Shown: positions 24,966-54,489, numbered from the stretch's first letter. The stretch: DNA of 64,000 nt from Chloroflexota bacterium (GCA_016191395.1 JACPOS010000017.1:1-64000); one strand, 5' to 3'. Made by a program: numbers and translations. Notes: generated by a model not told the origin, from the sequence alone.

Positions 24966-25008
24966 GGGCCATCCGGCAGTGTCAGCCGGAGCGGGTCCGG
25001 CATAGCCT
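24966..25008 (+). promoter_or_regulatory. DosR-like box and -10 upstream of the hemerythrin operon
   Basis: Box GGGCC-ATCC-GGCAG at 24966-24979, then a 23-nt gap and the -10 TAGCCT at 25003-25008. The implied start near 25015 puts the box centre at about -42.5, as for class II activators. The leader is about 17 nt and includes TAGGAGG before the ATG at 25032. Confidence 0.65.
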
Positions 25009-25031
25009 CCGAATCGAGTAGGAGGCTTCCC

Positions 25032-25385
25032 ATGGACGCGCGCTTGGCTGCAATCCCCGGCCGGAAGGCCGCTGTCGTCTGGTTGGATCGCTCGCACGCG
25101 CTCGTCGCACGCGGGCATGACGGCCGCCCCGAGGTCACCAAGGTCGATCGGTCGTTCGAGCCGGAGACGGACTACCTGCTTCGCGTCGTCCACGAGGCCG
25201 CCGGCTGCGACCGCCTGGTCGTCATGGGCGCGGACGCCGCGAGGGTCGCATTCGAGCGCGAGTACGTGGCGCTGTATCGCCGGCCGGACCGCCTCATCGA
25301 CGTCGGCCAGGCCATGGTGCCGCGCCCCGCCGACCTCGTTGACCAGCTCCGCATGCTCGAGCCGTCGCTTGCGGCGGCGCACTGA
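25032..25385 (+). CDS. small eRF1/host-attachment-like protein
   Basis: 117 residues, cytoplasmic. It begins with KAAVVWLDRSHALVARGHDG and continues with YLLRVVHEAAGCDRLVVMGA, a pattern I associate with the small 'WIDHREAxI' proteins related to peptide-release-factor domain 1 and host-attachment proteins. The 46990 product shows the same start (LVTLVWIDAREARIVRWAD) and the same later block (LQLIGPGT), so the two are distant paralogues. Function is unknown; both are the first gene after a DosR-like box. AGGAGG lies 8 nt before the ATG. Confidence 0.55.
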   Translation: MDARLAAIPGRKAAVVWLDRSHALVARGHDGRPEVTKVDRSFEPETDYLLRVVHEAAGCDRLVVMGADAARVAFEREYVALYRRPDRLIDVGQAMVPRPADLVDQLRMLEPSLAAAH

Positions 25386-25398
25386 GGAGGTCCCTGCC

Positions 25399-25857
25399 AT
25401 GGGTTGCCCGATGACCGCCGACGTCGTCGAGGAGCGAATCCTCGAACGCGAGCACGAGTCCCTGCGTGTTGGCCTCTCCACCCTCCAGGGCGCGATCGAA
25501 GATGCCCACCGGCTGTCGCGCCCGGAGCTCGCCGAGCGGGTAGCCCGGTCCACCGCCTGGATGCACCGCGCCTTCCTGCCGCATGCCGCCTGGGAGGAGG
25601 CCTGGCTGTTCGCCCACATGGACCAGGAGACCGGGTCGCCGTGGACCACGCGCGGCCTGCGCTTCCAGCACGAGCAGATCCGCGAGCTTGCCTCGGCACT
25701 CGAGAAGGCATCCACCGTCGCGCACGAGCGATGGACTCGCGAGATCGAGTTCGCGCTGGTCGCCGCGATGGCCCGGCTGGACGCGCTCCTGTCCGCGCAT
25801 CTCGCCCAGGAGGAGCTCTTCGTGCTCCCGCTGCTCGGTGAGAAGCTGCGAGGCTGA
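25399..25857 (+). CDS. hemerythrin HHE-domain protein
   Basis: 152 residues of a predicted four-helix bundle. Candidate di-iron ligands are His in EREHESLR, His and Glu in LPHAAWEEAWLFAHMD, His in RFQHEQIREL, and His/Glu in LSAHLAQEELFVLP. Proteins of this family bind O2 or NO at a non-heme di-iron centre, or protect iron-sulfur enzymes. GAGGAGG precedes the ATG. Its place next to a DosSR-like system and the O2-sensitive hydrogenase and PFOR operons fits oxygen scavenging or sensing, which is inference. Confidence 0.8.
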   Translation: MGCPMTADVVEERILEREHESLRVGLSTLQGAIEDAHRLSRPELAERVARSTAWMHRAFLPHAAWEEAWLFAHMDQETGSPWTTRGLRFQHEQIRELASALEKASTVAHERWTREIEFALVAAMARLDALLSAHLAQEELFVLPLLGEKLRG

Positions 25858-26626: not shown

Positions 26627-26675
26627 GCGGCATCTCCGAGCGGACCATCGGCGCGACCAACGGCCCGGCCCCGTG

Positions 26676-26719
26676 GGGCCGTTCGGCCGACCGGCCGATC
26701 GGGGCGGCCCTCCTATGCT
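26676..26719 (+). promoter_or_regulatory. DosR-like box and -10, acetyl-CoA hydrolase/transferase gene (leaderless)
   Basis: Box GGGCC-GTTC-GGCCG at 26676-26689, a 24-nt gap (others have 23) and TATGCT at 26714-26719. Only 6 nt separate the -10 from the ATG at 26726, so the mRNA should be leaderless. The region also holds GGCCCCGTGGGGCC and a second GGCCG-ATCG-GGGCG element that may be a weaker second site. Confidence 0.65.
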
Positions 26720-26725
26720 CCGGGC

Positions 26726-27997
26726 ATGAAGATCGTCTCGGCTGAACAAGCCGTCGCCGGCATCCGCTCGGGCGACCAGCTCTACCTCCAATGCGCGGCG
26801 GCCACGCCGTCCGTGCTCCTCGACGCGCTCGTTGCCCGCGCGCCGGAGCTCGAGGCCGTCAGCGTCGTGCACCTCCACTGCGAGGGTCCGGGGCCCCACC
26901 TTGCCCCCGCGATGGCTCCGCACTTCCGGCATCGGGCGCTGTTCATCGGCCCCAACGCCCGCGCCGCGGTCAACGAGGGGCGCGCGGACTATGTGCCCGC
27001 ATTCCTGTCCGATGTGCCGCGCCTGTTCGAATCGGGGATGCTCCCGCTCAACTTCGTGTTCGTGAACGCGACCCCGCCGGACGCGCACGGCTTCTGCTCG
27101 CTGGGCACCAGCGTGGAGGCGATGCACGCCGCGATCAAGGCGGCGAAGACCGTCATCGTCCAGTTCAACCGCGCGGTGCCGCGCACGCTCGGCGAGAGCT
27201 TCATCCACGTCGACCAGATCGACCTCGCCGTCGAGTGCGACGTGCCGCCCTACGACGTCCACATGGGCGAGATCGGCGACGTGGAGCGACGGATCGGCGA
27301 GTTCGTGGCGGACCTGGTGCCCGACGGTGCCACGATCCAGATGGGCATCGGCGCGATCCCGGCCGCGGTCGGCGCGGCGCTGACGGGCAAGCGCGACCTG
27401 GGCGTCCACACCGAGATGTTCACCGACACCATCGTGGACCTCGTCGAGGCCGGCGTCATCAACGGCTCCATGAAGGAGCGCAACCGGGGCAAGATCGTCG
27501 CCGCGTTCATGATGGGCACGAAGCGCCTGTATGACTTCGTGGCGGACAACCCGATGATCGAGATGCGCTCGGTCGACTTCACCAATGACACCCACGTCAT
27601 CCGGACGTTCAGCCGGATGACCGCGATCAACTCGGCGGTGGAGATCGACCTGACCGGCCAGATCGTCGCCGACTCGATCGGCCACCGGATGTATTCCGGA
27701 GTAGGCGGCCAGATGGACTTCGTCCGCGGCGCGTCGCTCGCGAGCGAGGGCAAGGCGATCATCGCGCTGCCGTCGTCAGCGCAGGGCGGCGGGCGGTCGC
27801 GCATCGTCGCGAGCATCCAGGAGGGTGCTGGGGTCGTGACCACCCGCGCGCATGCGCGGACGGTCGTGACCGAGCACGGCATCGCGGAGCTGTGGGGCAG
27901 GTCGCTGCGCGAGCGCGCCAAGGCGCTGATCGCGATCGCCGACCCGGCATTCCGCGACGAGCTGGAGCACGAGGCGGAGCGCCTCCACCTGGCCTGA
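26726..27997 (+). CDS. acetyl-CoA hydrolase / 4-hydroxybutyrate CoA-transferase family protein
   Basis: 423 residues, the usual length. N-terminal family motifs are GDQLYLQCAAATPSVLLDAL and NEGRADYVPAFLSDVPRLF; the C-terminal half has the catalytic-Glu region GVHTEMFTD and the diagnostic YSGVGGQMDFVRGA and LPSSAQGGGRSRIV. The enzyme swaps CoA between acetate and another acid, or hydrolyses acetyl-CoA. Beside PFOR, phosphoketolase and acetate kinase, a role in acetate formation or succinate:acetate exchange is plausible. It is monocistronic: own promoter in front, terminator hairpin behind. Confidence 0.85.
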   Translation: MKIVSAEQAVAGIRSGDQLYLQCAAATPSVLLDALVARAPELEAVSVVHLHCEGPGPHLAPAMAPHFRHRALFIGPNARAAVNEGRADYVPAFLSDVPRLFESGMLPLNFVFVNATPPDAHGFCSLGTSVEAMHAAIKAAKTVIVQFNRAVPRTLGESFIHVDQIDLAVECDVPPYDVHMGEIGDVERRIGEFVADLVPDGATIQMGIGAIPAAVGAALTGKRDLGVHTEMFTDTIVDLVEAGVINGSMKERNRGKIVAAFMMGTKRLYDFVADNPMIEMRSVDFTNDTHVIRTFSRMTAINSAVEIDLTGQIVADSIGHRMYSGVGGQMDFVRGASLASEGKAIIALPSSAQGGGRSRIVASIQEGAGVVTTRAHARTVVTEHGIAELWGRSLRERAKALIAIADPAFRDELEHEAERLHLA

Positions 27998-28152: not shown

Positions 28153-28195
28153 GGGCCGAACGGCCCGAACCGTTTGGCCCGCTAGGCCGTAGGTC
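28153..28195 (+). promoter_or_regulatory. DosR-like box and -10, distal promoter P1 of the hydrogenase operon
   Basis: Perfect box GGGCC-GAAC-GGCCC at 28153-28166, 23-nt gap, and TAGGTC at 28190-28195. The -10 lacks the usual last T. A further half-like element, CGTTTGGCCC, follows the box at 28171. The P1 -10 overlaps the left arm of the inverted repeat at 28187. Confidence 0.6.
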
Positions 28196-28228: not shown

Positions 28229-28271
28229 GGGCCGGTTGGCGCTCTCGATCGAGGGGGACCCTCGGTAGCGT
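28229..28271 (+). promoter_or_regulatory. DosR-like box and -10, proximal promoter P2 of the hydrogenase operon
   Basis: Box GGGCC-GGTT-GGCGC at 28229-28242, a 23-nt gap and TAGCGT at 28266-28271. Transcription would start near 28278, giving an 18-nt leader before the ATG at 28296. Together with P1 it gives two boxes with identical geometry in tandem. Confidence 0.6.
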
Positions 28272-28295: not shown

Positions 28296-28757
28296 ATGAC
28301 CACACGAATCACGAGCGCCCTGGACCGCCTGTCCCCAGCCGTGCACGCGCGGCTCGCCGAGCTGACGAGACCCGTCGCCTACCCGGCGGGCGCCGTGATC
28401 CTGCGCGAGGGCACCGACACCCCCTTCCTCGGCGCGATCCTCGAGGGCCGCGTCGCACTTCGACTCCGCGTCCCCGAGCGTGGCGACAGGGTCACGATCG
28501 TGACGGTGGAGCCGGGTGAGCTGCTCGGCTGGTCGGCGGTCGTCGCCCCGTATCGCGCGACGGTGGATGCGGTCGCGACCGAGCCGACGCGCCTGCTGGC
28601 CATCGATGCGGTCGCCCTGCGGGACCGCCTCGCCGCGGACTGCGAGCTCGCCGCGGAGCTGCTGCCGCTGGTCCTGGAGTCCGTCTCCGACCGCCTGAGC
28701 GGGAGCTGGCAGCAGCTGCTCGACATGTTCGGCGCCCGGGTCCACGAACCATGGTGA
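28296..28757 (+). CDS. Crp/Fnr-type cyclic-nucleotide-binding domain protein, no HTH
   Basis: 153 residues with one cNMP-binding beta-roll: YPAGAVILREGTDTPFLGAILEGRVAL, then VTVEPGELLGWSAVVAPYRA and a helical C-terminus of about 50 residues. The Arg of the phosphate-binding cassette (usually RSA) is replaced in GWSAVVAPYRATVDA, so cAMP binding is doubtful. There is no winged-helix DNA-binding domain; the chain ends after the C-helix. It heads the hydrogenase operon and its end overlaps the next gene by 7 nt, as in other group 3b clusters that begin with such a protein. It may sense the operon's redox or nucleotide state. Confidence 0.75.
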   Translation: MTTRITSALDRLSPAVHARLAELTRPVAYPAGAVILREGTDTPFLGAILEGRVALRLRVPERGDRVTIVTVEPGELLGWSAVVAPYRATVDAVATEPTRLLAIDAVALRDRLAADCELAAELLPLVLESVSDRLSGSWQQLLDMFGARVHEPW

Positions 28758-30814
28758 TCGAGAACCGCTGGCCCGTGATGGCCGGCGCGCGGTTCCTGCC
28801 CGTGGGCCGCCTCGACGACCTGATCGGCGCGCTGCATGCCGACGGGCGCCGCGTCGTTGGGCCCGTTGTCGAGGATGGCGGGATCAAGATGGCCGAGATC
28901 GAGCGCGCGGCAGAGCTGCCGTTCGGGTGGACCGCCTCCGCGGCACCTGGCCTGGTTCGCCTCAGCCGCCGGCCCGCGAACGATCGCGCAGCCGGTCGCG
29001 CGTTCGACAACGGCCCCGCGTGGAGCGGGATCAAGCCGTGGACGTTCCCGTCGCGCGTCGATGCGCTGACGGTGGAGACCCGCGAGGACGGCTCGCTCGG
29101 TGTCAGGGTGGAGGCTCCCGCGAACCAGCCGACCGCCGTGATCGGCGCCCGGGCGTGCGATCTTGCCGCCCTCGCGGTACACGACCGGGTCCTGGCAGGC
29201 GGGCCAGCGATTGATCCGGACTACGCCGCGCGCCGCGCCGACCTGCTTGTCGTCGCCGTCGAGTGCGCGCTCGCCACGTCCACCTGCTTCTGCACCTCGA
29301 TGGGTACCGGCCCGGAGGTCACGACGGGCGCTGACGTCGTCCTCGCGGAGGTCGACGGGGGCTTCGTGGCCAGGTCGGACAGTCCTGCAGGGGAGCGGCT
29401 GCTCGCCGGGCTCGACCTTGCTGAGGCCGGGCCGCTCCGCGTCGGGGCGGCGATCGAGCAGGTAACGAAGGTCCGCGACGCCATGGGCCACGCGGTCGAG
29501 GCCGAGGGCCTGCACGACCGGCTGCTGGCGAACCTCGACAGCCCGCGCTGGGAGGCGATCGCGGAACGCTGCCTCGCCTGCGCGAACTGCACGCTGGTCT
29601 GCCCAACCTGCTTCTGCACCGGAACCGTGATCGAGTCCGACCTGGATGGCCGCGAATCCTCGGCGACGCGTCAGTGGGACAGCTGCTTCACGGCCGGCTT
29701 CGCGCAGGTCGCCGGCGGCGGGAGCTTCCGGCCGCATCACGCGGACCGATATCGGCAGTGGCTCACGCACAAGTTCGCGACGTGGTGGGACCAGTTCGGC
29801 AGCTCCGGCTGCGTGGGCTGCGGCCGCTGCATCGCGTGGTGCCCGGTCGGGATCGACGTTCGCGAGGAGCTGGCTGCGATCGCGGGCCCCGCGATCACGG
29901 ACCTGCCGGCAGCGGCCCCGGCAACCACCCCCGCAGCCGCGCCGATCGCGGTCAAGGGCACGCGGATCCTGGCGATGGCGCCGACCGCGCTCCAGCCCGG
30001 CTCCATCCGGACCGACTACGTGACTGCCACCGTCACCGAGGTTCGCCCCGAGACGGCCGACACCGCGACGCTCCGGCTCGTGACCGGCGACGCTGCGCTC
30101 CTCGCCGCGCGACCGGGCCAGTTCGTCATGGTGGCGGTACCCGCGTTCGCGATCCCGCCGATCTCCATCTCGCGCATCAATCCGGACGGCCTGGAGCTCA
30201 CGATCCGCGCGGCGGGGCCGGCGACCAGCTTCATGACGCGCCTCCGGCCGGGAGCAGAGCTCGCGTTGCGCGGGCCGCTGGGACGGCCGTGGCCCATCGA
30301 GGACGCGTACGGGCGCGACGTCGCCATCGTGGCCGGCGGGATCGGGCTCGCGCCGCTGCGTGGCCTCCTGGACCAGGTCCTCGCGGAGCGTGACCGGTTC
30401 AGCTCCATCCGTGTCTATCTCGGGGCGCGGACCCCGCGCGACCGGCTGTTCGTCGCGGAGATGGACGCACTCGCCGCGGGCGGCCTGGATATCCGCGCCA
30501 CCGTGGATCGCGCCGGCCCGGAGTGGCTCGGGCGGGTGGGCATCATCACGGACATCTTCCGGAACGCGAAGGCGACCGGCCAGAACGTGACCGCCTTCGT
30601 GTGCGGACCCGAACGGATGATGACCGCCGTCGTCGACGTGCTGGGTGATCTCGACGTACCCCGGGAGCACACCTGGCTGACCCTTGAGCGCCGGATGGAG
30701 TGCGGCGTGGGCCTGTGCGGGCACTGCCAGCTCGGCTCGCGCTTCGTCTGCCGGGACGGCCCGGTGTTCTCCGTCGCCGAGCTCGGCGACGACCTTCGAC
30801 GGGAAGGCCTGTGA
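28751..30814 (+). CDS. group 3b [NiFe] hydrogenase, fused beta (Fe-S) and gamma (FAD/NAD) subunits
   Basis: 687 residues. Residues 1-390 match the HydB/HyhB Fe-S subunit: CALATSTCFCTSMG, CLACANCTLVCPTCFC and GCVGCGRCIAWCPVGID are the cluster-binding motifs. An Ala/Pro/Thr linker (about 385-405) follows. Residues 410-687 match the HydG/HyhG diaphorase subunit: FAD-binding ISISRINP, NAD-binding VAGGIGLAPLRGLLDQ and a C-terminal 2Fe-2S motif CGVGLCGHCQLGSRFVC. In Pyrococcus-type enzymes these are two genes. The protein should move electrons between NAD(P)H and the hydrogenase core. It overlaps the CRP-like gene before and the delta subunit after (TGATG). Confidence 0.88.
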   Translation: MVIENRWPVMAGARFLPVGRLDDLIGALHADGRRVVGPVVEDGGIKMAEIERAAELPFGWTASAAPGLVRLSRRPANDRAAGRAFDNGPAWSGIKPWTFPSRVDALTVETREDGSLGVRVEAPANQPTAVIGARACDLAALAVHDRVLAGGPAIDPDYAARRADLLVVAVECALATSTCFCTSMGTGPEVTTGADVVLAEVDGGFVARSDSPAGERLLAGLDLAEAGPLRVGAAIEQVTKVRDAMGHAVEAEGLHDRLLANLDSPRWEAIAERCLACANCTLVCPTCFCTGTVIESDLDGRESSATRQWDSCFTAGFAQVAGGGSFRPHHADRYRQWLTHKFATWWDQFGSSGCVGCGRCIAWCPVGIDVREELAAIAGPAITDLPAAAPATTPAAAPIAVKGTRILAMAPTALQPGSIRTDYVTATVTEVRPETADTATLRLVTGDAALLAARPGQFVMVAVPAFAIPPISISRINPDGLELTIRAAGPATSFMTRLRPGAELALRGPLGRPWPIEDAYGRDVAIVAGGIGLAPLRGLLDQVLAERDRFSSIRVYLGARTPRDRLFVAEMDALAAGGLDIRATVDRAGPEWLGRVGIITDIFRNAKATGQNVTAFVCGPERMMTAVVDVLGDLDVPREHTWLTLERRMECGVGLCGHCQLGSRFVCRDGPVFSVAELGDDLRREGL

Positions 30815-31752
30815 TGCAGCTCCCACCAGTCCCGACGGCGCAGGTGTCGAAGCGGGCCACGACCCTCAATCGCCCGCGTGTCGGCGTCGTCAAGTTCGCG
30901 TCCTGCGACGGCTGCCAGCTGACGATCCTGGACCTCGAGGACGAGCTGCTCGCGCTCACCGAGCGCTTCGAGTTCGTCGAGTTCGCCGAGGCGACCTCGC
31001 GCCGGTCGTCCGGACCGTTCGACGTCCTGTTCGTGGAGGGCTCCATCTCCAGCCCGGAGCAGGCCGTGGAGATCGCCAGGCTCCGCGCGGCGACGAAGAC
31101 GCTCGTCACGATCGGAGCGTGCGCCACCGCCGGTGGCATTCAGGCGCTGCGGACCGCATCAGAGCACGAGGCTTTCCGGGCCGCCGTCTACCCGGCGCCG
31201 GCGTTCGTGGAATCGCTCGCTGTCGCGTCGCCGATCTCGAGCTACGTCACCGTGGACGCGGAGCTCCGAGGCTGCCCGATCGACGCCCACCAGCTCGTGG
31301 AGCTCCTGACCGCGGTCACGACCGGCCGCCGTCCGCAGCTGCCGGACCAGGCGGTCTGCCTGGAGTGCAAGCGGCGCGGCCTCGAGTGCGTCGTGGTGAC
31401 GCGCGGCGAGCCGTGTCTCGGTCCGGTCACGCAGACCGGCTGCGGCGCGATCTGCCCGGGCATCGGCCGCGGCTGCTACGGCTGCTTCGGACCGCGTGAG
31501 GGCGCGAACGTCGACGGACTGGCCAGCTGGTTCGTCGATGGGCCCGCGCTCGGTGGGCTCAAGCGCGAGGACGTGGGGCGCCTGTTCGCCGGCTTCACCG
31601 GCGCCGCGCAGCCCTTCCGCGCGGTTACCGACCGGCTCGGTGGTCGACCGCAGATCCCCCTCCGCCCGGCGACGGCCCACGGTCCGGAGCACAGCGAGCA
31701 CACGCCGCCCGTCTGGGGCACGCGCCCGGAGGACCCCGATGCACGCCGGTGA
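30814..31752 (+). CDS. group 3b [NiFe] hydrogenase small (delta) subunit
   Basis: 312 residues, no Tat signal, so a cytoplasmic hydrogenase. The proximal-cluster motif is FASCDGCQLTILDLEDELL near residue 30, followed by FVEGSISS, VTIGACATAGGIQALR, GCPIDAHQLVELL, VCLECKRRGLECVVVTRGEPCLGPVTQTGCGAICP and RGCYGCFGPREGANV. The cysteines carry the 4Fe-4S clusters between the active site and the Fe-S subunit. The tail of about 35 residues after GGRPQIP is low-complexity. It starts in a TGATG overlap and overlaps the large subunit by 14 nt. Confidence 0.9.
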   Translation: MQLPPVPTAQVSKRATTLNRPRVGVVKFASCDGCQLTILDLEDELLALTERFEFVEFAEATSRRSSGPFDVLFVEGSISSPEQAVEIARLRAATKTLVTIGACATAGGIQALRTASEHEAFRAAVYPAPAFVESLAVASPISSYVTVDAELRGCPIDAHQLVELLTAVTTGRRPQLPDQAVCLECKRRGLECVVVTRGEPCLGPVTQTGCGAICPGIGRGCYGCFGPREGANVDGLASWFVDGPALGGLKREDVGRLFAGFTGAAQPFRAVTDRLGGRPQIPLRPATAHGPEHSEHTPPVWGTRPEDPDARR

Positions 31753-33046
31753 CCTGCGCTTCCAGGTGCAGAACCTGACCCGCGTCGAGGGCGAGGGCTC
31801 GCTGCACCTGCTCGTCCGCGACGGCATGGTTGCCGAGGCGCGGCTCCAGATCTTCGAGGCGCCACGCTACTTCGAGGCGCTGGTCGCGGGCCGGACGCCT
31901 GACGAGGTGCTGGACATCGTGTCGCGCATCTGCGGCATCTGCCCGGTCGCCTACCAGATGAGCGCGGTCCACGCCTTCGAGGACCTGTTCGAGGTGAAGG
32001 TGGAGCCGTCCACGCGGGCCCTGCGGCGCCTCCTTTACTGCGCCGAGTGGATCGAGAGCCACGCACTGCACATCTACCTGCTTCACGCGCCCGACTTCCT
32101 GGGCTATCCCAGCGCGGTCGAGCTCGCGCGCGACCATCGCCAGCTCGTGGCGGACGGCCTGCGCCTGAAGCAGATCGGCAACAGGCTCCTCGGCCTGCTC
32201 GGGGGCCGGGCAATCCACCCGGTCAGCGTTCGGGTCGGCGGCTGGTCGCGCGCGCCGAGGCGGGCCCAATTGCTGGCCATGCGGCCGGCGTTGGAGGAGG
32301 GCCTTCGCCTCGCGCGCGCGACGGTCGACGTAGCCCTGGGGCTCACGCCGCCGGTCTTCGAGCGCGAGCCTCGGCTGGTCGCCCTGCACAACCCCACCGA
32401 GTACCCGATGAACGAGGGCCGGATCGTCTCGAATGACGGCCTCGCGCTCGCGCCCCAGGCGTGGGGCGAGGCGTTCCACGAGGTCCAGGTCCCGTGGTCC
32501 AACGCCCTCCAGGCGCGCGGCAGCGACAACCTGCCGTACCTCCTGGGTCCTGCCGCGCGGATCGAGCTGGATCACGAACAGCTGCACCCGATCGCGCGGG
32601 CGGCCCTGGATGCCAGTGGCGCCCTGGAGTCCATCCGGCTCAACCCGTACCGGAGCATCGTGGCCCGGGCGATCGAGCTGGTCCATGCGACCGCCGAGGC
32701 GATCGACATCATGGATGCGTACATCCCGCCCGAGCAGGCGGCCGTGGCGTGGGAGCCCCGACCTGGCATCGCGGCATGGGCCACCGAGGCGCCGCGAGGC
32801 CTGCTCTTCCATCGCTACGAGGTCGGCGAGGACGGCAAGGTGGCCGCGGCGACGATCGTCCCGCCCACCTCCCAGAACCAGGCGGCGATCGAGGCGGACA
32901 TCGCCGCATTCGCACCGCGTGTCCTGGACCTGCCGATGGACGCGGCGACGCACACGCTGGAGCAGCTGATCCGCTCGTACGACCCGTGCATCTCCTGCGC
33001 AACCCACTTCCTCGACCTGTCGGTCCGGCGGGAGGCGACGTCATGA
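31739..33046 (+). CDS. group 3b [NiFe] hydrogenase large (alpha) subunit
   Basis: 435 residues carrying the Ni-Fe(CN)2CO site. The N-terminal L1 motif is RICGICP with Cys65 and Cys68 and the C-terminal L2 motif is DPCISCATHF with Cys417 and Cys420. The chain continues 12 residues after His423, the usual position where a maturation protease cleaves, so it needs processing by the protease encoded next (33043). Group 3b enzymes are bidirectional NAD(P)-linked hydrogenases, some also reduce sulfur; the sulfur cluster at 54.5 kb makes this possibility notable. All four residues of both CxxC motifs are intact. Confidence 0.92.
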   Translation: MHAGDLRFQVQNLTRVEGEGSLHLLVRDGMVAEARLQIFEAPRYFEALVAGRTPDEVLDIVSRICGICPVAYQMSAVHAFEDLFEVKVEPSTRALRRLLYCAEWIESHALHIYLLHAPDFLGYPSAVELARDHRQLVADGLRLKQIGNRLLGLLGGRAIHPVSVRVGGWSRAPRRAQLLAMRPALEEGLRLARATVDVALGLTPPVFEREPRLVALHNPTEYPMNEGRIVSNDGLALAPQAWGEAFHEVQVPWSNALQARGSDNLPYLLGPAARIELDHEQLHPIARAALDASGALESIRLNPYRSIVARAIELVHATAEAIDIMDAYIPPEQAAVAWEPRPGIAAWATEAPRGLLFHRYEVGEDGKVAAATIVPPTSQNQAAIEADIAAFAPRVLDLPMDAATHTLEQLIRSYDPCISCATHFLDLSVRREATS

Positions 33047-37608: not shown

Positions 37609-37624
37609 CCTCCGGCGCGCCACA

Positions 37625-40015: not shown

Positions 40016-40033
40016 GACGCGCGGCCGGCTGAG

Positions 40034-41546: not shown

Positions 41547-41604
41547 GACTTGCCGCCCCTCGGAGACCGGCCCCCCGATCGGCGGCCGAACGGCGCCCCA
41601 GGCC

Positions 41605-46894: not shown

Positions 46895-46959
46895 GGGCCC
46901 TTCGGCATCCCATCCGAAGCCGATCGGCCGGTGCGCAGGGTTGTCGCGCGTCGCAGGCT
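46895..46959 (+). promoter_or_regulatory. DosR-like sites and -10 upstream of the 46990 operon
   Basis: GGGCC-CTTC-GGCAT at 46895-46908 has no -10 at 23 nt. The weaker AAGCC-GATC-GGCCG at 46917-46930 is followed by 23 nt and CAGGCT at 46954-46959. The start near 46966 leaves a leader of about 24 nt with AGGAGG. Two boxes in series resemble the paired boxes of DosR promoters. Confidence 0.5.
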
Positions 46960-46989: not shown

Positions 46990-47460
46990 ATGGAAGTCCG
47001 CACCCACGAGCGTCTCGTCACGCTGGTGTGGATCGACGCCCGGGAGGCCCGCATCGTCCGATGGGCAGACGAGTCGGCCCATGTCGAGCGGCTCGAATCC
47101 GACGTTCCCAGCCATCGCCAGTCATCTGGCCAGGTCCGGCACGACCCACGCGTCCGGCCCGGTGGTGGTGGCGGCAGCGCGGCGACGTCAGGCGAGCCGC
47201 GCCGCCTGGAGCACCTGGCGCGGTTCCTGGAAGCCGTCGCCGACCGAGTGCCTGACGGAGATCTCCAGCTGATCGGCCCGGGCACCGTCCACGAGCATCT
47301 GGCCAGGGTCGTCCGCGATGCCGATCCGCGCGGGATCCGGCACATCGAAACGGCCGCCAGCGCGCCGCTCACGGACCGTCAGCTCATCGCACGCCTTCGT
47401 CGGCTGGTCGGGCACGAGCCCCGCCGTCGCACCATCGCTCGGAGGAGGAGACTCGCGTGA
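46990..47460 (+). CDS. small eRF1/host-attachment-like protein
   Basis: 156 residues starting LVTLVWIDAREARIVRWADE, the hallmark of the 'WIDHREAxI' family, with a Gly-rich linker (about 55-65) and the later block LQLIGPGTVHEHLARVVRDA plus IRHIETAASAPLTDRQLIAR. Distant paralogue of the 25032 product. The basic C-terminal tail (RRLVGHEPRRRTIARRRRLA) could bind nucleic acid or the ribosome, which is inferred. AGGAGG lies 8 nt before the ATG, and the end overlaps the next gene by GTGA. Confidence 0.6.
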   Translation: MEVRTHERLVTLVWIDAREARIVRWADESAHVERLESDVPSHRQSSGQVRHDPRVRPGGGGGSAATSGEPRRLEHLARFLEAVADRVPDGDLQLIGPGTVHEHLARVVRDADPRGIRHIETAASAPLTDRQLIARLRRLVGHEPRRRTIARRRRLA

Positions 47461-48800
47461 ACCGTCAGCGTCTTGTCGTGATGGGCGCCGCCGGGCGCGA
47501 CTTCCACGACTTCAACGTGGTCTACCGGGACGATCCGGCGGTGGAGGTCGTCGCCTTCACGGCAACCCAGATCCCGGGCATCGCCAACCGGCGCTATCCA
47601 CCGGAGCTGGCCGGATCGCTGTACCCGGGGGGCATCGCCATCGTCCCGGAGGAGGAGCTGGAGCAGCTCATCCACGATCACGCGGTCAACACGGTGGTGT
47701 TCGCGTACAGCGACGTCAGCCATGAGACGGTGATGCATGCCGCATCGCGCGCGATGGCTGCAGGTGCCGACTTCGAGCTCCTCGGCCCCGCCCGGACCAT
47801 GCTCAGGAGCCGGCGCCCCGTGATCGCGATCGGAGCGACCCGCACCGGGGCGGGCAAGAGCCAGACGACGCGCTACGTCGCAGCGCTCCTGGTCGAGCGC
47901 GGGCTCACCCCGGTGGTGATCCGCCATCCCATGCCGTACGGCGACCTGGTCGCCCAGCGGGTCCAGCGCTTCGCGAGCCACGAGGACCTGGACCGGTACG
48001 ACACGACCATCGAGGAGCGGGAGGAGTACGAGCCCCACATCGACGCGGGCCGGGTCGTCTTCGCCGGCGTCGACTACGACGCCATCCTCCACGCGGCGGA
48101 GCTCGAGGCGGACGTGATCCTATGGGACGGCGGGAACAACGACTTCCCGTTCTACCGGCCGGACCTGAACATCGTGGTCGCCGACCCGCTGCGAGCGGGA
48201 GACGAGCGCCGCTTCCATCCCGGCGAGATGAACCTCCGGATGGCCGACGTCGTGATCATCAACAAGATCGATTCGGCGACCCCCGAGCAGCTGGACGAGA
48301 TCCAAGCGTCCATTGCCGAGCTCAACCCCCGCGCGCGGGTGATCACGGCCAGATCCGACGTGACGCTCGACGGGCCCCCGATCGCGGGCCTGCGGGTGGT
48401 CGTCGTCGAGGATGGGCCGACGCTCACCCACGGTGGCATGCACTTCGGCGCGGGCGTCGTGGCCGCGCGTCGCTTCGGGGCCGCGTCGCTCGCCGATCCG
48501 CGGCCTGCGGCGGTCGGCTCCATCCGAGCCACCCTGGAGAAGTACCCGGGCCTCGAGCCGCTCATTCCCGCGATGGGCTACGGCGGCGAGCAGGTCGCCG
48601 AGCTCGAGGCGACGCTCAACGCGGTCGAAGCGGAGGTCGTCCTGTCGGCCACGCCCATCGACCTGGCGCGACTCGTGAACCTCAACAAGCCGATCACGCG
48701 CGTCCGCTACGACCTCGCGCCCGTCGGCGGGCCGTCGCTCGCGGACGTCATTGCGCCGATCGTGCGGATGACCAGAACACCGGTCCCGGTCGCCGGCTGA
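47457..48800 (+). CDS. cyclic 2,3-diphosphoglycerate synthetase-like P-loop protein
   Basis: 447 residues. N-terminal Rossmann-like half (RLVVMGAAGRDFHDFNVVYR, then FTATQIPGIANRRYPPELAG) and a P-loop GTPase-like half with Walker A AIGATRTGAGKSQTTRYVAA and Walker B region DVILWDGGNNDFPFYRPDLN, MNLRMADVVIINKIDSATPE. This matches the cyclic-DPG synthetase family, described in methanogens as making the stabiliser cDPG; bacterial members are uncharacterised and the reaction may differ. The GTG start overlaps the preceding stop (GTGA), so the two are co-expressed. Confidence 0.75.
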   Translation: MNRQRLVVMGAAGRDFHDFNVVYRDDPAVEVVAFTATQIPGIANRRYPPELAGSLYPGGIAIVPEEELEQLIHDHAVNTVVFAYSDVSHETVMHAASRAMAAGADFELLGPARTMLRSRRPVIAIGATRTGAGKSQTTRYVAALLVERGLTPVVIRHPMPYGDLVAQRVQRFASHEDLDRYDTTIEEREEYEPHIDAGRVVFAGVDYDAILHAAELEADVILWDGGNNDFPFYRPDLNIVVADPLRAGDERRFHPGEMNLRMADVVIINKIDSATPEQLDEIQASIAELNPRARVITARSDVTLDGPPIAGLRVVVVEDGPTLTHGGMHFGAGVVAARRFGAASLADPRPAAVGSIRATLEKYPGLEPLIPAMGYGGEQVAELEATLNAVEAEVVLSATPIDLARLVNLNKPITRVRYDLAPVGGPSLADVIAPIVRMTRTPVPVAG

Positions 48801-48817: not shown

Positions 48818-48860
48818 GGGTCAGTTGGCCCTAGCGGGTGGGTCCGGGTAGTCCGACGAT
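48818..48860 (+). promoter_or_regulatory. DosR-like box and -10 of the Usp gene
   Basis: Box GGGTC-AGTT-GGCCC at 48818-48831, gap of 23 nt and GACGAT at 48855-48860. The leader is about 43 nt and ends with AAAGGAG before the ATG at 48910. TAGTCC at 48849 is an alternative -10, but its spacing (17 nt) departs from the others. Confidence 0.6.
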
Positions 48861-48909: not shown

Positions 48910-49311
48910 ATGAAACGCATCCTGGTTGCCTATGACGGGGGCGAGCCCGCCCGCCGGGCACTCGACACCGCCATCGACCTGGCGAATCGCTTCGAGGCGC
49001 TGATCAGCGTCGTCAGCGTGGTGCCGTATCACCCAGGCCGGGCGCCCATGGACCCATGGGATGACGAGCGGATCCACGCCGCCGCACTCGAGGAAGCCCG
49101 GAAGATCCTCGCGGAGCGCGGCAAGACGGCCGAGCTGCTCGAGCCGATCGGCGATCCCGCGACGACCATCGAGCGCGTGGCCGAGGATGGCGGCTTCGAC
49201 ACGGTCATCGTCGGGTCCCGCGGCCTCGGCGCGCTGTCCCGCTTCCTGCAGGGCAGCGTCTCCAGCCACGTCGCCTCGCACGCGAACGCGACGGTCATCG
49301 TCGCCCGCTGA
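48910..49311 (+). CDS. universal stress protein (UspA family)
   Basis: 133 residues, a compact single Usp domain: MKRILVAYDGGEPARRALDT, DTVIVGSRGLGALSRFLQGS and VSSHVASHANATVIVAR. The ATP-binding G-x2-G-x9-G(S) pattern is intact, so it probably binds ATP and forms a dimer. Usp genes are typical members of DosR regulons in mycobacteria; this one has a DosR-like box and its own ribosome site AAAGGAG. Confidence 0.85.
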   Translation: MKRILVAYDGGEPARRALDTAIDLANRFEALISVVSVVPYHPGRAPMDPWDDERIHAAALEEARKILAERGKTAELLEPIGDPATTIERVAEDGGFDTVIVGSRGLGALSRFLQGSVSSHVASHANATVIVAR

Positions 49312-49335
49312 TCGGGCTCCAGCGCCCAGTCGATC

Positions 49336-49378
49336 GGGCCGCTCGGCCCTACCGCGATCCCCCGGTTCGGCCGAGCAT
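49336..49378 (+). promoter_or_regulatory. DosR-like box and -10 of the 49435 membrane protein gene
   Basis: Perfect box GGGCC-GCTC-GGCCC at 49336-49349, gap of 23 nt and GAGCAT at 49373-49378. The leader is about 50 nt with AAAGGAGGAAGG before the ATG at 49435. Confidence 0.65.
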
Positions 49379-49434
49379 GATCGATGACGTCGATCCGGCG
49401 CTGCCGGGCCGCGTCGGAAAGGAGGAAGGCAAGA

Positions 49435-49749
49435 ATGGAACTTGCCATCACCCTGGGAATCGGCGGCTGGCTGGTGCTCCTTGCCGGCGCGCTGCTGTTC
49501 GGCGTCATCGCCCAGTTCATCGGCGAGGCGCGGACGGGATTTGAGTGGCTCGCCGACGCGATTGCGGCCGCCCTTGGCGCGATCATCGCGAGCGAGTTCA
49601 TCATCTCGGCCCGGACCTTCGAGCCGGTCTGGGACGGGCTCGCGATCGTGCCCGCCCTCATCGGCGGCCTGGTCCTCGGCATCGTCGTCGAGCTGGCGAC
49701 GCGTTATCTGACGGGTGGGAGGTATACGACCCGGCCGATGGCCGTTTGA
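49435..49749 (+). CDS. small membrane protein, transglycosylase-associated (GlsB/YeaQ-like)
   Basis: 104 residues with three predicted helices: LAITLGIGGWLVLLAGALLF, FEWLADAIAAALGAIIASEF and LAIVPALIGGLVLGIVVELA. Short polar loops include GEARTGFE. The pattern resembles GlsB/YeaQ/YmgE (transglycosylase-associated) small membrane proteins, which are often stress-induced and of unknown function, but the match is by general layout. The gene is monocistronic between a DosR-like promoter and a hairpin terminator. Confidence 0.6.
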   Translation: MELAITLGIGGWLVLLAGALLFGVIAQFIGEARTGFEWLADAIAAALGAIIASEFIISARTFEPVWDGLAIVPALIGGLVLGIVVELATRYLTGGRYTTRPMAV

Positions 49750-49770
49750 GGTCTCCTCTCGCACCGAGCC

Positions 49771-49801
49771 AACGGCCCGCCCGCAATGCCGGCGGGCCGT
49801 T
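49771..49801 (+). terminator. hairpin after the small membrane protein gene
   Basis: Perfect 11-bp stem AACGGCCCGCC / GGCGGGCCGTT with a 9-nt loop, 21 nt after the stop at 49749. The right arm includes GGGCCGTT, which by itself resembles a DosR-like half-box but is explained by the hairpin. Confidence 0.7.
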
Positions 49802-49827
49802 CGGTGTCCAGCGTTCACACTGATCCC

Positions 49828-52371
49828 ATGCAGACGAGCCCGGCCCCCGCTACGCAGGTGGGCGACGCCCACGCGCTGACCGCGGCAGAGGTCGCTACCC
49901 GCCTTGCCGTCGATCCGGCCGTGGGCCTGGACCCGGCCGAGGCGACGCGCAGGGCCAGCGCGGCGGGCCCCAACGCGCTGGAGCGCGCGGAGGCGCCGTC
50001 CGTCTGGCGCATGGTGCTCGACGCCGCGACCGAGCCGTTCGTGCTCCTGCTGATGGCCTCGGGCATCGGGGCGATCATCTTGAACGAGGTCCGCGACGGG
50101 ATCCTCATCCTGTTCGGGCTCGTGCCCATCGTGGGTGCCGACGTGCTCACGGAGTTTCGTGGCGAGCGCGCCCTCGAGGCATTGCGCCGGGCCTCCGCGC
50201 CCTCCGCCCGGGTCCGCCGCGGCGGCGAGATCACGGAGGTCGCCGCAGCAACGCTCGTGCCCGGGGACGTGGTGATCATCCGCGTCGGCGACGTCGTGCC
50301 GGCCGATATCCGCGTGTCGAAGGTGGACCGGCTCTCGATCGATCGAAGCATCCTCACCGGCGAATCGCTGCCGGAGCCCGCGACCGTGGAGCCGGACGCA
50401 CCGGACGCCGTCCTCGCAACTCGCCATTCCATGGCCTTCTCCGGCACGAGCGTGGTCGCCGGTCGAGGCGAGGGCATCGTCGTGGCGATCGGCTCGCAGA
50501 CCGAGGTCGGGCGGATCGCCGGCAGCCTCTCCACCCGCGCCCGTCGCCGCTCCCCGCTCCAGCGCGAGCTGGACCGGCTCGTGCGGATCCTGATCGTCGT
50601 CGCAGTCGGGCTTATCGGGATCACGACAGGCCTCGGCTTCGCTCGGGGCAACCCCATCGGGGAGAACCTGCTCGCCGGCATCTCCGCGGCCATCGCCGCG
50701 ATCCCGGAGGAGCCACCGATCCTGCTCGCCGTCGTGCTTGGCCTCGGGGCGTTCCGCCTCCTGAAGCGCGGCGTCCTGGTCCGGCGCCTGAACGCCGAGG
50801 AGGTCCTGGGTGCTGTGGACCTCGTCGTCACCGACAAGACCGGCACGCTCACGCAGAACCGTCTCGCGATTGCATCGCTGACAGGCCCGGACGGTCCCAT
50901 CACCGACCCGGGAGCGCGCCTGGACCTGCTGACCGATGCGCTGCGCGCTGAGGACGACGCGTGGTTGCACGAGGCGGGCATAGGCGTCGGATCGTTCACG
51001 CGGGCGCTGGTGCGCGCGGTCGAGGCAGAGGGCGGCGAAGCGCACCCCGACCCGGCCGACCTCGTTTCGACCGAGCCGGTGACGGACAGCCGGCCGTACA
51101 GCTCCACCGTCGCGCGCCGTGGCGGCGTCACCGAGACGCTCGTGATCGGTGCCCCGGAAGCGGTGGCCGTCCACGCCGGCGCGTCACCGGAGGAGCGCGC
51201 CGCCTGGCACGCGGCCCTCGAGGCGGCGGCAGTACGCGGCGAGCGTGTCGTCGGCGTGGCAGGGCGCATCGACAGTCGTCCGTGGACGCTGCGCGGCCTG
51301 GTGGGGTTCGCGGATGCCCTCCGGCCGGGCATCGCCGACGCCATGCAGATCGCGCTTGGGGCGGGCATCCAGGTGGTCATGGTCACCGGCGACCACCCCG
51401 CCACCGCAAAGGCCATCGCGACGCAGGCCGGACTGGACCATGGCGGCGTGACCCTGGGCTCTGAGCTGGAGTCGTGGTCCGACGAGGAGCTGGCCAGGCG
51501 TCTCCCGGAGCTGCGGGTGATCGCGCGGTCCACGCCGGACCAGAAGCGGCGGATCGTCCAGGTCGCGCGGGGCGCCGGCCGCCTCGTCGCGGTCACCGGC
51601 GACGGCGTCAACGACGCCCCGGCGCTGCACGCCGCCGACGTCGCCGTCGCGATGGGCAGCGGGACCGCGGTCGCGCGCGAGGCGTCCGACCTGGTCCTCG
51701 GCGACGACTCGTTCGCGACCCTGGTCTACGGGATGCGCGAGGGCCGGCGGATCGTGGACAACATCCAGAAGGGCCTGGTCTTCCTCGTCTCCACCCATGT
51801 CGCGCTGCTGGGATTCCTGCTGATCGCGACGGTCGCCGGGTTCAGCCGGCCGCTCCTGCCCATCCAGATCCTGTGGCTGGAGCTGTTCATCGATGTGGCC
51901 GCGTCCGTCGCCTTCGAGCGCGAGCCACCGGAGCCCGACATCATGACGCGGCCCCCGCGCCACATCGAGACGCCGCTGTTCACCACGGGCCTGCTGGGTC
52001 GCATCGCCCTGGCCGGCGGCTTCAGCGCGGTCGCTGCCCTTGTCCTCCTCGCGACCGATCCCCGGGGCGCGGCACACGGCCAGTGGCTTGCCTACACGGC
52101 GCTCGCCTGCGCCCAAGCCGTGCGTGCGTACGGCAACCGGAGTCTGACCGAGCCGCTGCACCGGCTGTCCTGGAACGGCGTCCTGCTCGCTGCGGCGGTG
52201 TTCACCGTTGTCATCCAGGTCGCGATTCCGTACGTGCCCGTCCTTGCCGACGCGTTCCGCGCCGAGATGCTGGACGCACGCGACTGGGCGCTGGTCGCGA
52301 TCGTCGCGCTCGGGCCGGCCCTGGTCGTCCAGGTGCTCCGTGCCCGCGGCCGCGGGGTGTCCGTCGGCTGA
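49828..52371 (+). CDS. P-type cation-transporting ATPase
   Basis: 847 residues. Domain order: N-terminal cation-ATPase domain (LTAAEVATRLAVDP), TM1-2, actuator domain with the dephosphorylation loop ILTGESLPEPA, TM3-4 with PEEPPILLAVVLGLG, phosphorylation site VVTDKTGTLTQ, nucleotide-binding domain, hinge VTGDGVNDAPALHAADVAVAMG and four C-terminal helices. Substrate residues in TM4 read IPEEPP rather than the Ca2+-ATPase PEGLP, so the cation cannot be named; divalent cations are typical of P2-type relatives. ATG 49828 is chosen because it lies in the correct frame just upstream of the fold; the preceding 14 codons are part of the terminator. Confidence 0.85.
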   Translation: MQTSPAPATQVGDAHALTAAEVATRLAVDPAVGLDPAEATRRASAAGPNALERAEAPSVWRMVLDAATEPFVLLLMASGIGAIILNEVRDGILILFGLVPIVGADVLTEFRGERALEALRRASAPSARVRRGGEITEVAAATLVPGDVVIIRVGDVVPADIRVSKVDRLSIDRSILTGESLPEPATVEPDAPDAVLATRHSMAFSGTSVVAGRGEGIVVAIGSQTEVGRIAGSLSTRARRRSPLQRELDRLVRILIVVAVGLIGITTGLGFARGNPIGENLLAGISAAIAAIPEEPPILLAVVLGLGAFRLLKRGVLVRRLNAEEVLGAVDLVVTDKTGTLTQNRLAIASLTGPDGPITDPGARLDLLTDALRAEDDAWLHEAGIGVGSFTRALVRAVEAEGGEAHPDPADLVSTEPVTDSRPYSSTVARRGGVTETLVIGAPEAVAVHAGASPEERAAWHAALEAAAVRGERVVGVAGRIDSRPWTLRGLVGFADALRPGIADAMQIALGAGIQVVMVTGDHPATAKAIATQAGLDHGGVTLGSELESWSDEELARRLPELRVIARSTPDQKRRIVQVARGAGRLVAVTGDGVNDAPALHAADVAVAMGSGTAVAREASDLVLGDDSFATLVYGMREGRRIVDNIQKGLVFLVSTHVALLGFLLIATVAGFSRPLLPIQILWLELFIDVAASVAFEREPPEPDIMTRPPRHIETPLFTTGLLGRIALAGGFSAVAALVLLATDPRGAAHGQWLAYTALACAQAVRAYGNRSLTEPLHRLSWNGVLLAAAVFTVVIQVAIPYVPVLADAFRAEMLDARDWALVAIVALGPALVVQVLRARGRGVSVG

Positions 52372-52382: not shown

Positions 52383-52396
52383 GGGCCGGATGGCCG
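52383..52396 (+). promoter_or_regulatory. DosR-like box upstream of hypC without a matching -10
   Basis: GGGCC-GGAT-GGCCG at 52383-52396, and GGGCT-ATTC-GGCAC at 52405-52418. Neither has an A2/T6 hexamer at 23 nt. They precede the box at 52426 and could be auxiliary sites, giving three in series. Confidence 0.4.
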
Positions 52397-52425
52397 CCCG
52401 TGGTGGGCTATTCGGCACCACGCCG

Positions 52426-52468
52426 ATGACGCTCGGCCCTGCCCCGCCCCGGGCCGCTTCGCGACAGT
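52426..52468 (+). promoter_or_regulatory. DosR-like half-box and -10 of the hypC operon
   Basis: ATGAC-GCTC-GGCCC at 52426-52439 (right half perfect), 23 nt, then GACAGT at 52463-52468. The start is predicted at about 52475, where an ATG stands. Confidence 0.5.
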
Positions 52469-52522: not shown

Positions 52523-52750
52523 ATGTGCATCTCGTTTCCCGGCCGCGTCGTCGGGGTTGACCTGGACGACGCGATCGTGGAGATCGACGGGCGTCGACGT
52601 CGCGCCTCGTTGCGCATGCGCGTCGACGTCGTCGTCGGCGACTGGGTGCTGGTTGGGGCAGGCAGCGTCCTGCGTCGATTGGACGCCCGGGAAGCGGCCG
52701 AGATCAACGCAATCCTCAAGCCAGCCATGAATGCGGGAGGCTCCAGATGA
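52523..52750 (+). CDS. hypC: HypC/HupF family hydrogenase maturation chaperone
   Basis: 75 residues. The N-terminal Cys2 in MCISFPGRVV is the essential residue for carrying the Fe(CN)2CO group to the large subunit, and VGDWVLVGAGSVLRRLDARE is the family's second signature. The rest of the Hyp machinery (HypA, B, D, E, F) is not in the window. It probably serves the group 3b hydrogenase at 28-33 kb. It overlaps the next gene by ATGA. Confidence 0.85.
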   Translation: MCISFPGRVVGVDLDDAIVEIDGRRRRASLRMRVDVVVGDWVLVGAGSVLRRLDAREAAEINAILKPAMNAGGSR

Positions 52751-53661
52751 AGACGCTCCGGTGGGGCGTGCTCCTTGCCGTCGGGACGGCGCTCATCAGC
52801 GGCGTGTCCATCTTCGTGAACGGGCTGGCGGTGAAGCAGCTGCCCGACCCGGCGGTGTACACGACGCTCAAGAACGGCGTGGCTGCGCTGGTCCTGGTCG
52901 GCCTGGCGCTGGCGACCGTCCGTCCGGCCCAGCTCCGGGCCGTCCCGGCGCGCTCGTGGGGCTGGCTCGCCGTGATCGGCGTGATCGGCGGGAGCGTTCC
53001 GTTCCTGCTCTTCTTCACCGGCCTCGCCCAGGCGAGCGCACCGTCCGCCGCGTTCATCCACAAGACACTGTTCATCTGGGTCGCGATCCTCGCCGTGCCG
53101 CTGCTCGGTGAGCGCCTGGGCCTTGCCCAGCTCGGCGCGCTCGCGCTGCTGCTGGTGGGGCAAGCGCTGATCCTCACGCCGGCAGGCGTCAGCTGGGGCA
53201 CAGGCGAGACGATGATCGCGTTGGCCACGCTCCTGTGGGCGGTCGAGACGATCGTTGCCAAGCGCCTCCTGCGCGAGGTCCCGGCCGCCGTGGTCGGCGC
53301 TGGACGGCTCGCGATCGGCCTCGTGGTGCTGTTCGGCTACCTCGCCGTCACCGGTGCCCTCGCCAAGGTTGGGGCCCTGACCGGCGTCCAGTGGGGCTGG
53401 ATCCTGCTCACGGGCCTGCTCCTGTCCGGGTATGTCGGAACCTGGTTCGCGGCGCTGAAGCGGGCGCCGGCAAGCCTCGTCACGGCCATCCTGGTGCTGG
53501 GCGCGCCGGTGACCGCGGGGATCCAGGCGCTCCAGACCGGCGCGATCCCGGCACCCCCCGTGCTGACCGGGCAGTTGCTGGTGCTCCTCGCGGGCGGCGC
53601 ACTCGTCGTCACCGCCATCCGACGCTGGCGACCCGTCACCGCCCCGGCGATGGCCGGCTGA
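52747..53661 (+). CDS. EamA/DMT-superfamily transporter
   Basis: 304 residues with about ten transmembrane helices in two EamA repeats (VLLAVGTALISGVSIFVNGL to LLLVGQALILTP; TMIALATLLWAVETIVAKRL to LVTAIRRW). The typical Pro/Glu motif of the first repeat is VPLLGERLGLAQLGA. Substrate unknown; members export amino acids, nucleotide sugars or other metabolites. It is coupled to hypC by ATGA, an odd pairing that could mean an ion or metabolite supply role linked to hydrogenase maturation (inference). Confidence 0.8.
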   Translation: MKTLRWGVLLAVGTALISGVSIFVNGLAVKQLPDPAVYTTLKNGVAALVLVGLALATVRPAQLRAVPARSWGWLAVIGVIGGSVPFLLFFTGLAQASAPSAAFIHKTLFIWVAILAVPLLGERLGLAQLGALALLLVGQALILTPAGVSWGTGETMIALATLLWAVETIVAKRLLREVPAAVVGAGRLAIGLVVLFGYLAVTGALAKVGALTGVQWGWILLTGLLLSGYVGTWFAALKRAPASLVTAILVLGAPVTAGIQALQTGAIPAPPVLTGQLLVLLAGGALVVTAIRRWRPVTAPAMAG

Positions 53662-53672
53662 CCCCACGCGCC

Positions 53673-54470
53673 GTGCAGACCGTCCTGCGTTCGCCGGAGC
53701 CGGCGGCCGCAGACTGGAACCGCCCGATCGAGGAGGCGTCGGGCCCCATTCGCTTCGCTCGCTACGCCTTCGGGCCCAACAGCCGCGGCTACTGCGGGCC
53801 GGACGAGGCAGGCGAGCTGTTCCAGCAGGCAACGCTCGGGCGTGACCTGGCGAGGCTCCGCGAGCTCGCGGGCCAATTCGAGGGCGCCTATCCGTACCTG
53901 CGCCTGATTGCCCTCAGCAACGGGATTGCCGACCCCCTCGCCGCCGACGTCGTCGAGGCGTACTGGCTCGGCAGCGCCCTCGCGGATCGCGTGCGTCCGG
54001 CGGACTTCGGGCGCTCCCTCGAGGAACGCTTCCGGCCGCGCCTGCGCCGCGATGGCTGGCGCTGGCTCGGTGGCAAGCCGGAAGCGGGCGCCGTCCCGAA
54101 CCACGCCTTCCACGTCCTCGACGTGTTCCCCAAGGTCGGGCTCATGCGCACCGGCGACATCGACAACGCGCTCGCGGTGATGGACTCCTGCCGCATCCGG
54201 TGGGGCCGCGTCCTCGAGCGGGACGGCGATTCGCTCGTCGTGTCCGCCGTCCCGCTGGCCATGGTCGGTGGCAGGCTGGAGCTCGCCGCGCCGCGGGTGG
54301 AGCGGATCCGCGGCTGGGCGGATGGGGCGGGCTTCGTGGAGGATGCGGCACTGGGCGACGTGGTCGCGATCCACTGGGACTGGGCGTGCGAGCGGCTGAA
54401 CGCCGCGCGCCTCGCGGCCCTGCAGGGATCAACGGTCGCCGAGCTCCGCCTGGCAAACCAGACCATCTAG
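53673..54470 (+). CDS. protein of unknown function (DUF6390-like)
   Basis: 265 residues from GTG 53673, 12 nt after the transporter stop. Soluble, mainly helical. Characteristic segments are PIRFARYAFGPNSRGYCGPD, LARLRELAGQFEGAYPYLRL, LSNGIADPLAADVVEAYWLG, PNHAFHVLDVFPKVGLMRTG and IHWDWACERLNAARLAALQG. I recall proteins with this start and end near hydrogenase maturation genes under the name DUF6390, but cannot verify it here. The conserved His/Trp/Asp residues in the C-terminal half could form a site. It probably belongs to the hypC operon. Confidence 0.6.
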   Translation: MQTVLRSPEPAAADWNRPIEEASGPIRFARYAFGPNSRGYCGPDEAGELFQQATLGRDLARLRELAGQFEGAYPYLRLIALSNGIADPLAADVVEAYWLGSALADRVRPADFGRSLEERFRPRLRRDGWRWLGGKPEAGAVPNHAFHVLDVFPKVGLMRTGDIDNALAVMDSCRIRWGRVLERDGDSLVVSAVPLAMVGGRLELAAPRVERIRGWADGAGFVEDAALGDVVAIHWDWACERLNAARLAALQGSTVAELRLANQTI

Positions 54471-54475
54471 GGGTC

Positions 54476-54489
54476 GGGCCGGACGGCCC
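54476..54489 (+). promoter_or_regulatory. perfect DosR-like box upstream of the sulfur cluster
   Basis: GGGCC-GGAC-GGCCC at 54476-54489. The hexamer 23 nt downstream is CAGAAG, weak compared with the other promoters (A2 present, T6 absent). It lies 6 nt after the preceding stop and about 80 nt before the ArsR ATG. Confidence 0.5.

Follow-up and report, generated by a model that had tools for sequence, protein, structure and literature searches.

Do the GC-rich palindromes that precede hydrogenase, fermentation and stress genes in an uncultured soil/sediment Chloroflexota bacterium (GCA_016191395.1 JACPOS010000017.1:1-64000) represent a DosR-type regulon, a kind of regulon described for Actinomycetota? 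The 64,000-nucleotide stretch analysed here, referred to as the window, lies at the start of contig C19, which is 264 kb long and belongs to a 2.42-Mb genome with 71% GC. The bacterium was placed in the Limnocylindria because the nearest relatives of the regulator encoded at 24260 are Chloroflexota metagenome-assembled genomes (MAGs), one of them labelled Limnocylindrales. The original prediction listed eleven GGGCC-N4-GGCCC-like boxes between 24966 and 54489, all of whose coordinates proved correct. Based on sequence analysis, it is highly probable that a DosR-type two-component regulon controls hydrogenase, fermentation and stress genes in this Limnocylindria bacterium, and the earlier proposal of a DosR-like regulon outside Actinomycetota is supported by motif enrichment, promoter spacing, tandem layout, the clade of the regulator and the GAF domain of the kinase. 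No paper on a Chloroflexota DosR regulon was found in the literature searched; novel here are the host phylum, the set of targets and the spacing rules made explicit.

A plain count of the box pattern in the window gave 114 matches with 139 expected, which is background at this GC content, so that raw counts are no evidence; all half-sites were therefore ranked without bias in intergenic DNA, using each of the 1,024 five-base half-sites with nine gaps (9,216 palindromes). GGGCC-N4-GGCCC ranked first of the 9,216 in the intergenic DNA of the window (P ~1e-8 relative to the other intergenic DNA of the genome, which was analysed as stretches of sequence), and the GGGCC half-site with a 4-base gap again ranked first in the loci of 35 relatives from the Limnocylindria (P ~1e-23). 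When compared with the coding DNA of the same loci, which was judged a better null than a composition-only shuffle, the Limnocylindria set contains 70 boxes where 18 are expected (P ~1e-20), and a second set, mainly Dehalococcoidia, contains 26 where 2.5 are expected (P ~1e-17), the box ranking first among GC-rich half-sites in both. The enrichment is absent from coding DNA and from other parts of this genome, and none was found in Bacillota and Anaerolineae loci beside more distant regulators. The palindrome GGG(A/C)C-N4-G(T/G)CCC, by which a DosR box is recognized, is present in promoters of this locus, and the Chloroflexota box also matches AGGGCCGATCGGCCCT, the consensus of OsdR from Streptomyces, which is regarded as an orthologue of DevR and whose binding is reduced by point changes in the consensus (PMC5069765).

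Among the eleven boxes, those at 28153, 49336 and 54476 are exact, six (24966, 26676, 28229, 41605, 46833 and 48818) are one or two bases off the consensus, and two (46917 and 52426) are three bases off; neither of the latter is callable alone, and a better box lies 21-22 bp upstream of each. It had been claimed that nine boxes end exactly 23 nt before a -10-like hexamer. Eight of the eleven do have NANNNT at that distance (TAGCCT, TAGCGT, TAGGTT, CAGCCT, CAGGCT, GACGAT, GAGCAT and GACAGT), while the ninth hexamer, TAGGTC at 28153, does not fit; the 24-nt gap given for 26676 was recovered (TATGCT), and 54476, where the hexamer had been called weak, has no -10. In the intergenic DNA of the relatives, TANNNT is found 23 or 24 nt past a box with at most one mismatch 9 times, with 0.2 expected per position, and no TANNNT peak follows the boxes in the coding DNA of these loci; an equal frequency in coding DNA at the 23-nt spacing, which had been named beforehand as an argument against the regulon, was not observed. 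In 41 genomes of the family, where TANNNT was searched 10-40 nt downstream of exact boxes, 36 of 114 hexamers lie at 22-24 nt (8.4 expected; P ~1e-10) with the peak at 23, and 31 of 104 (P 8e-9) remain when one of a near-identical genome pair is removed. The relation of 23-nt sites to the presence of the regulator (2/16 vs 34/98; P 0.06) is suggestive only. Since the box ends 23 nt before the hexamer, its centre lies near -42.5, as had been predicted, in agreement with the class II-like layout of mycobacterial DevR promoters, which have TANNNT -10 elements (PMC5360333).

A feature missed in the original prediction is that, for seven of the eleven window boxes, another box lies 21-23 bp upstream, and one of these arrays is triple. 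For the window boxes, an offset of -22 is on average the best of 47 offsets, and a spacing of 22 or 23 bp between boxes is also seen repeatedly in the relatives, on C19 and in the mainly Dehalococcoidia set; the profiles of control palindromes are flat. The tandem arrays account for a second -10 peak at 45 nt. They also explain the poor boxes at 46917 and 52426, because the upstream partners of both are good (52426 is the end of the triple array), and these two count only as members of multi-box promoters. The sites in mycobacterial DevR promoters are closely packed, with the proximal one over the -35 (PMC3029386), and the arrangement found here is the same: the boxes are tightly packed, and the proximal box lies at the -35 region of promoters with TANNNT. 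Tandem pairing is stronger DosR-like evidence than single-box geometry.

The product of the 24260 locus (24260..24943, plus strand) is a DosR-like response regulator of the NarL family, with receiver and GerE (NarL) domains (Pfam). Its best PDB match is DevR/DosR from M. tuberculosis (3c3w; 6.6e-57), followed by VraR (5.4e-48), and alignment to DevR indicates an intact recognition helix, KTVKNYVS, which is retained across the relatives. In a maximum-likelihood tree, whose root and sampling are limited, the regulator and M. tuberculosis DosR fall in one 64-row clade (support 99/97) in which the Actinobacteria form their own subclade, while VraR and most Anaerolineae and Bacillota homologues fall outside. 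It is the sole DosR-like regulator in the genome, the next best having 39% identity. The adjacent gene (23112..24263, plus strand) encodes a DosS/DosT-like sensor histidine kinase with one GAF domain, HisKA_3 and HATPase (Pfam), and its best PDB match is the GAF-A domain of DosT/DevS (4e-38). The DevR best match, the recognition helix, the shared clade and the DosT/DosS-type GAF domain bear out the DosS/DosR-like pair proposed earlier.

In the Limnocylindria the heme-ligand His column is conserved in 29/29 kinases and Gly87, as in DosT, in 28/29; the His aligns with H149 of DosS, the axial ligand. These residues, along with hydrogenase, PFOR (pyruvate:ferredoxin oxidoreductase), malic enzyme and hemerythrin targets that fit low oxygen, argue against a system with DosR-like DNA binding in which the GAF kinase responds to a different ligand or to redox state. 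We consider such a non-oxygen input unlikely, although it deserves some weight: the conserved His is necessary for heme yet no proof of it, the second GAF domain of DosS and DosT is absent from the 383-aa kinase (Pfam), and only 14 of 35 aligned kinases among deeper homologues keep the His.

For the oxygen-responsive DosR-type regulon, we infer heme and oxygen sensing, phosphotransfer, DNA binding and activation in the following order. The DosS/DosT-type GAF kinase probably senses oxygen or redox state via heme and would phosphorylate the DosR-like regulator, which in this form would bind GGGCC-N4-GGCCC, in most cases cooperatively at two boxes arranged in tandem about 22 bp, or two helical turns, apart. 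The promoter-proximal dimer, centred near -42.5 and just upstream of or overlapping the -35, might then recruit RNA polymerase with the primary sigma factor (class II activation). Low oxygen would in this way turn on hydrogenase, 2-oxoacid:ferredoxin oxidoreductases, acetate and malate metabolism, hemerythrin and stress proteins.

The module is not confined to the window. The DosS-DosR neighbourhood with a CoA-transferase, and often PFOR, hydrogenase or 2-oxoacid:ferredoxin oxidoreductase (KOR), is kept in many of the MAGs. Many CoA-transferase orthologues have boxes near -50/-72, and a box with at most one mismatch is present in 14 of 26 CoA-transferase upstream regions, compared with 2-6 for control palindromes. 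The whole-genome search for the full pattern gave three matches outside the window, all on C19 and with 22-24 nt geometry, which precede genes for phosphoenolpyruvate carboxykinase/malate dehydrogenase, a rubrerythrin-VIT protein and a UbiA protein; the rubrerythrin-VIT site is also present in a second species of this genus. Boxes in the mainly Dehalococcoidia set stand before GAF-kinase genes, a universal stress protein (Usp) gene and a hemerythrin gene.

By every sequence criterion tested, except a second GAF domain and an unproven autoregulation, the module belongs to the DosR/OsdR type, and it would work in the same way. With DosS/DosT-DosR (DevSR) of M. tuberculosis it shares the recognition helix, the 5-4-5 palindrome, a heme-type GAF kinase, the TANNNT -10, a close packing of boxes, the proximal of which lies over the -35, and targets of the Usp and cation-ATPase types, the latter represented in M. 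tuberculosis by ctpF. It differs from that system in its Chloroflexota host, in a half-site that is mostly GGGCC and not GGGAC, in the single GAF domain, and in its targets, which are mainly hydrogenase, PFOR/KOR, phosphoketolase, and acetate and malate enzymes. In M. smegmatis, a fermentative group 3 [NiFe]-hydrogenase is under DosR control in hypoxia; the sulfhydrogenase (group 3b-like) of the window is of this type, with DosR control predicted, but unlike in M. smegmatis the genes for PFOR, phosphoketolase and acetate kinase follow it in a single run. OsdK-OsdR of Streptomyces coelicolor has the same consensus and Usp genes near the regulator, whereas its targets are Usp, nitrate reductase, nitroreductase and development genes, and it belongs to another phylum (PMC5069765). 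With moderate confidence, we propose that the module of DosS/DosR heme kinase, regulator and box is a conserved oxygen switch of the Chloroflexota, at least in Limnocylindria and Dehalococcoidia, and so is not peculiar to Actinobacteria, and that in Limnocylindria it runs hydrogen-producing fermentation, not only dormancy. If this is true, the box, spacing and tandem rule would make it possible to predict, directly from DNA sequence, how abundant uncultured Chloroflexota respond to oxygen, low oxygen would be linked to hydrogenase and PFOR expression, and the system would offer an outgroup for the origin of the tuberculosis dormancy switch.

Several results weigh against a DosR-type regulon. 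The relaxed whole-genome pattern occurs 204 times family-wide versus 238 for the reversed control, so that many single-box matches are due to chance, and under the composition-only shuffle the enrichment in the relatives is modest (70 vs 44), with CG-rich palindromes placed above the box. Three of the -10 hexamers begin with GA instead of TA, and some targets identified in other genomes have no obvious link to hypoxia. Moreover, unlike in M. tuberculosis, no box with the standard activation geometry lies upstream of the regulator's own operon in this genome, a box-like sequence at 23080 being without the 23-nt geometry. No box enrichment was found before DosS genes in the Limnocylindria, although boxes do precede GAF-kinase genes in three loci (L039, L041 and L045). 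The plain window count and the relaxed family-wide count were set aside as uninformative at 71% GC and replaced by the intergenic ranking and the spacing histograms.

The boxes might also be real promoter operators bound by a different regulator, e.g., another NarL-family protein, since two further full-length NarL-type regulators with 38-39% identity are encoded in the genome (C9:134462 and C30:66384) and GC-rich palindromes are not unique to DosR. We regard this as quite improbable, as the recognition helix of the C9 paralogue differs (KTVRNHVS), the box is identical to the OsdR consensus, and five of the six exact GGGCCGNNCGGCCC sites, as well as all three full-pattern matches, lie on the contig with the DosRS genes, which makes up 11% of the genome; in addition, loci with DosR-clade regulators show enrichment of the motif in two Chloroflexota classes, and loci whose regulators fall mostly outside the clade show none. 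That high GC and selective reading gave rise to the boxes and their spacing, as the lack of enrichment in the plain and relaxed counts and the two boxes three bases off consensus would allow, is very improbable and largely refuted by the exhaustive palindrome ranking, the held-out relatives, the 41-genome histogram, the tandem spacing and the flat control palindromes.

The control proposed earlier for individual genes needs correcting at two points. PFOR, phosphoketolase and acetate kinase have no box of their own, and their expression would rely on transcription reading through from the hydrogenase promoter. The boxes at 28153 and 54476 are weak as promoters, so that regulation of the ArsR/DsrE 'sulfur' genes is only tentative. 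In front of the hemerythrin operon (features are on the plus strand unless stated), the distal box GGGACGCCCGGCCC (24944..24957) lies 22 bp upstream of the proximal box GGGCCATCCGGCAG (24966..24979), which is followed at 23 nt by TAGCCT (25003-25008). The target operon (25032..25857) encodes a 117-aa protein of no assigned function and a hemerythrin (25399-25857; Pfam). Beside the hemerythrin gene, a conserved protein of no assigned function is encoded at 25838-26626, and an apparent homologue in another genus (L200, genome G035) has a DosR-type box of its own, followed at 23 nt by TATCGT. The acetyl-CoA hydrolase/transferase gene (26726..27997; Pfam) is preceded by a distal box GCGACCAACGGCCC (26653..26666), located 23 bp upstream of the proximal box GGGCCGTTCGGCCG (26676..26689), with TATGCT (26714-26719) at 24 nt.

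Two boxes precede the hydrogenase genes. The exact box GGGCCGAACGGCCC (28153..28166) has no distal partner and would be a weak promoter, its hexamer TAGGTC lying inside an inverted repeat, GTAGGTCCC...GGGACCTAC (28188-28218), which is situated between the two boxes, overlaps the -10 originally assigned to 28153, and may itself be a regulatory element. The main predicted hydrogenase promoter has the proximal box GGGCCGGTTGGCGC (28229..28242) with TAGCGT (28266-28271) at 23 nt, and orthologues in L004 and L005 also have a box, with TANNNT at 24 nt. The contiguous gene run downstream (28296..41164; Pfam, NCBIfam) encodes a cyclic nucleotide (cNMP)-binding protein, [NiFe] (sulf)hydrogenase (28751-33046), the HycI protease (about 33055-33555), PFOR, a CBS protein, phosphoketolase and acetate kinase. 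The cNMP-binding protein (153 aa; 28296-28757) that heads the run is without a recognised DNA-binding domain, and is kept ahead of the hydrogenase in five relatives.

The KOR genes (41664..44393; Pfam), of which the alpha, beta and gamma subunits were confirmed from 41969 and the first small open reading frame was unconfirmed by Pfam, follow a distal box CGGCCGAACGGCGC (41583..41596) and, 22 bp from it, a proximal box GGGCCGTTCGGCAC (41605..41618) with TAGGTT (41642-41647) at 23 nt. On the minus strand, the malic enzyme gene (45133..46797; Pfam) has the proximal box GGGTCGCACGGCCC (46833..46846) with CAGCCT (46809-46804) at 23 nt, and 23 bp upstream the distal box GGGACGTGCGTCCC (46856..46869), which has the exact mycobacterial half-sites GGGAC/GTCCC. 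The genes for a 156-aa protein of no assigned function and a CobW/HypB-like GTPase (46990..48800; Pfam) are preceded by a distal box GGGCCCTTCGGCAT (46895..46908) 22 bp upstream of the weak proximal box AAGCCGATCGGCCG (46917..46930; three mismatches), with CAGGCT at 46954-46959. A single box, GGGTCAGTTGGCCC (48818..48831), with GACGAT at 48855-48860, precedes the Usp gene (48910..49311; Pfam).

A distal box GGGCTCCAGCGCCC (49314..49327), 22 bp upstream of the exact proximal box GGGCCGCTCGGCCC (49336..49349) with GAGCAT at 49373-49378, is located before the genes for a 121-aa protein of no assigned function and a P-type cation ATPase (49384..52371; Pfam). The triple array (52383..52439), with boxes at 52383, 52405 and 52426 spaced 22 and 21 bp apart, has GACAGT (52463-52468) 23 nt past the last box and precedes the genes for HypC, an EamA transporter and DUF6390 (52523..54470; Pfam). 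The exact box GGGCCGGACGGCCC (54476..54489) stands before the ArsR/DsrE genes. A DosR-type box just upstream of the ArsR-family gene (54535-54918), without a -10 at 23 nt, is conserved in three genomes (the window, L013 and L016), and a possible ArsR operator, ATGCGCAAACGTGCAT, follows it.

A receiver domain at the N-terminus of the window PFOR was considered and rejected, as the stretch concerned belongs to another reading frame; PFOR really starts near 33552, and HycI occupies the gap. In a relative (L145, genome G065), a PFOR does carry an N-terminal Response_reg domain (Pfam, E value 1.5e-7) ahead of the POR domain, and its gene lies just downstream of a DosR-type box at 1501 on the minus strand with TACGGT at 23 nt.

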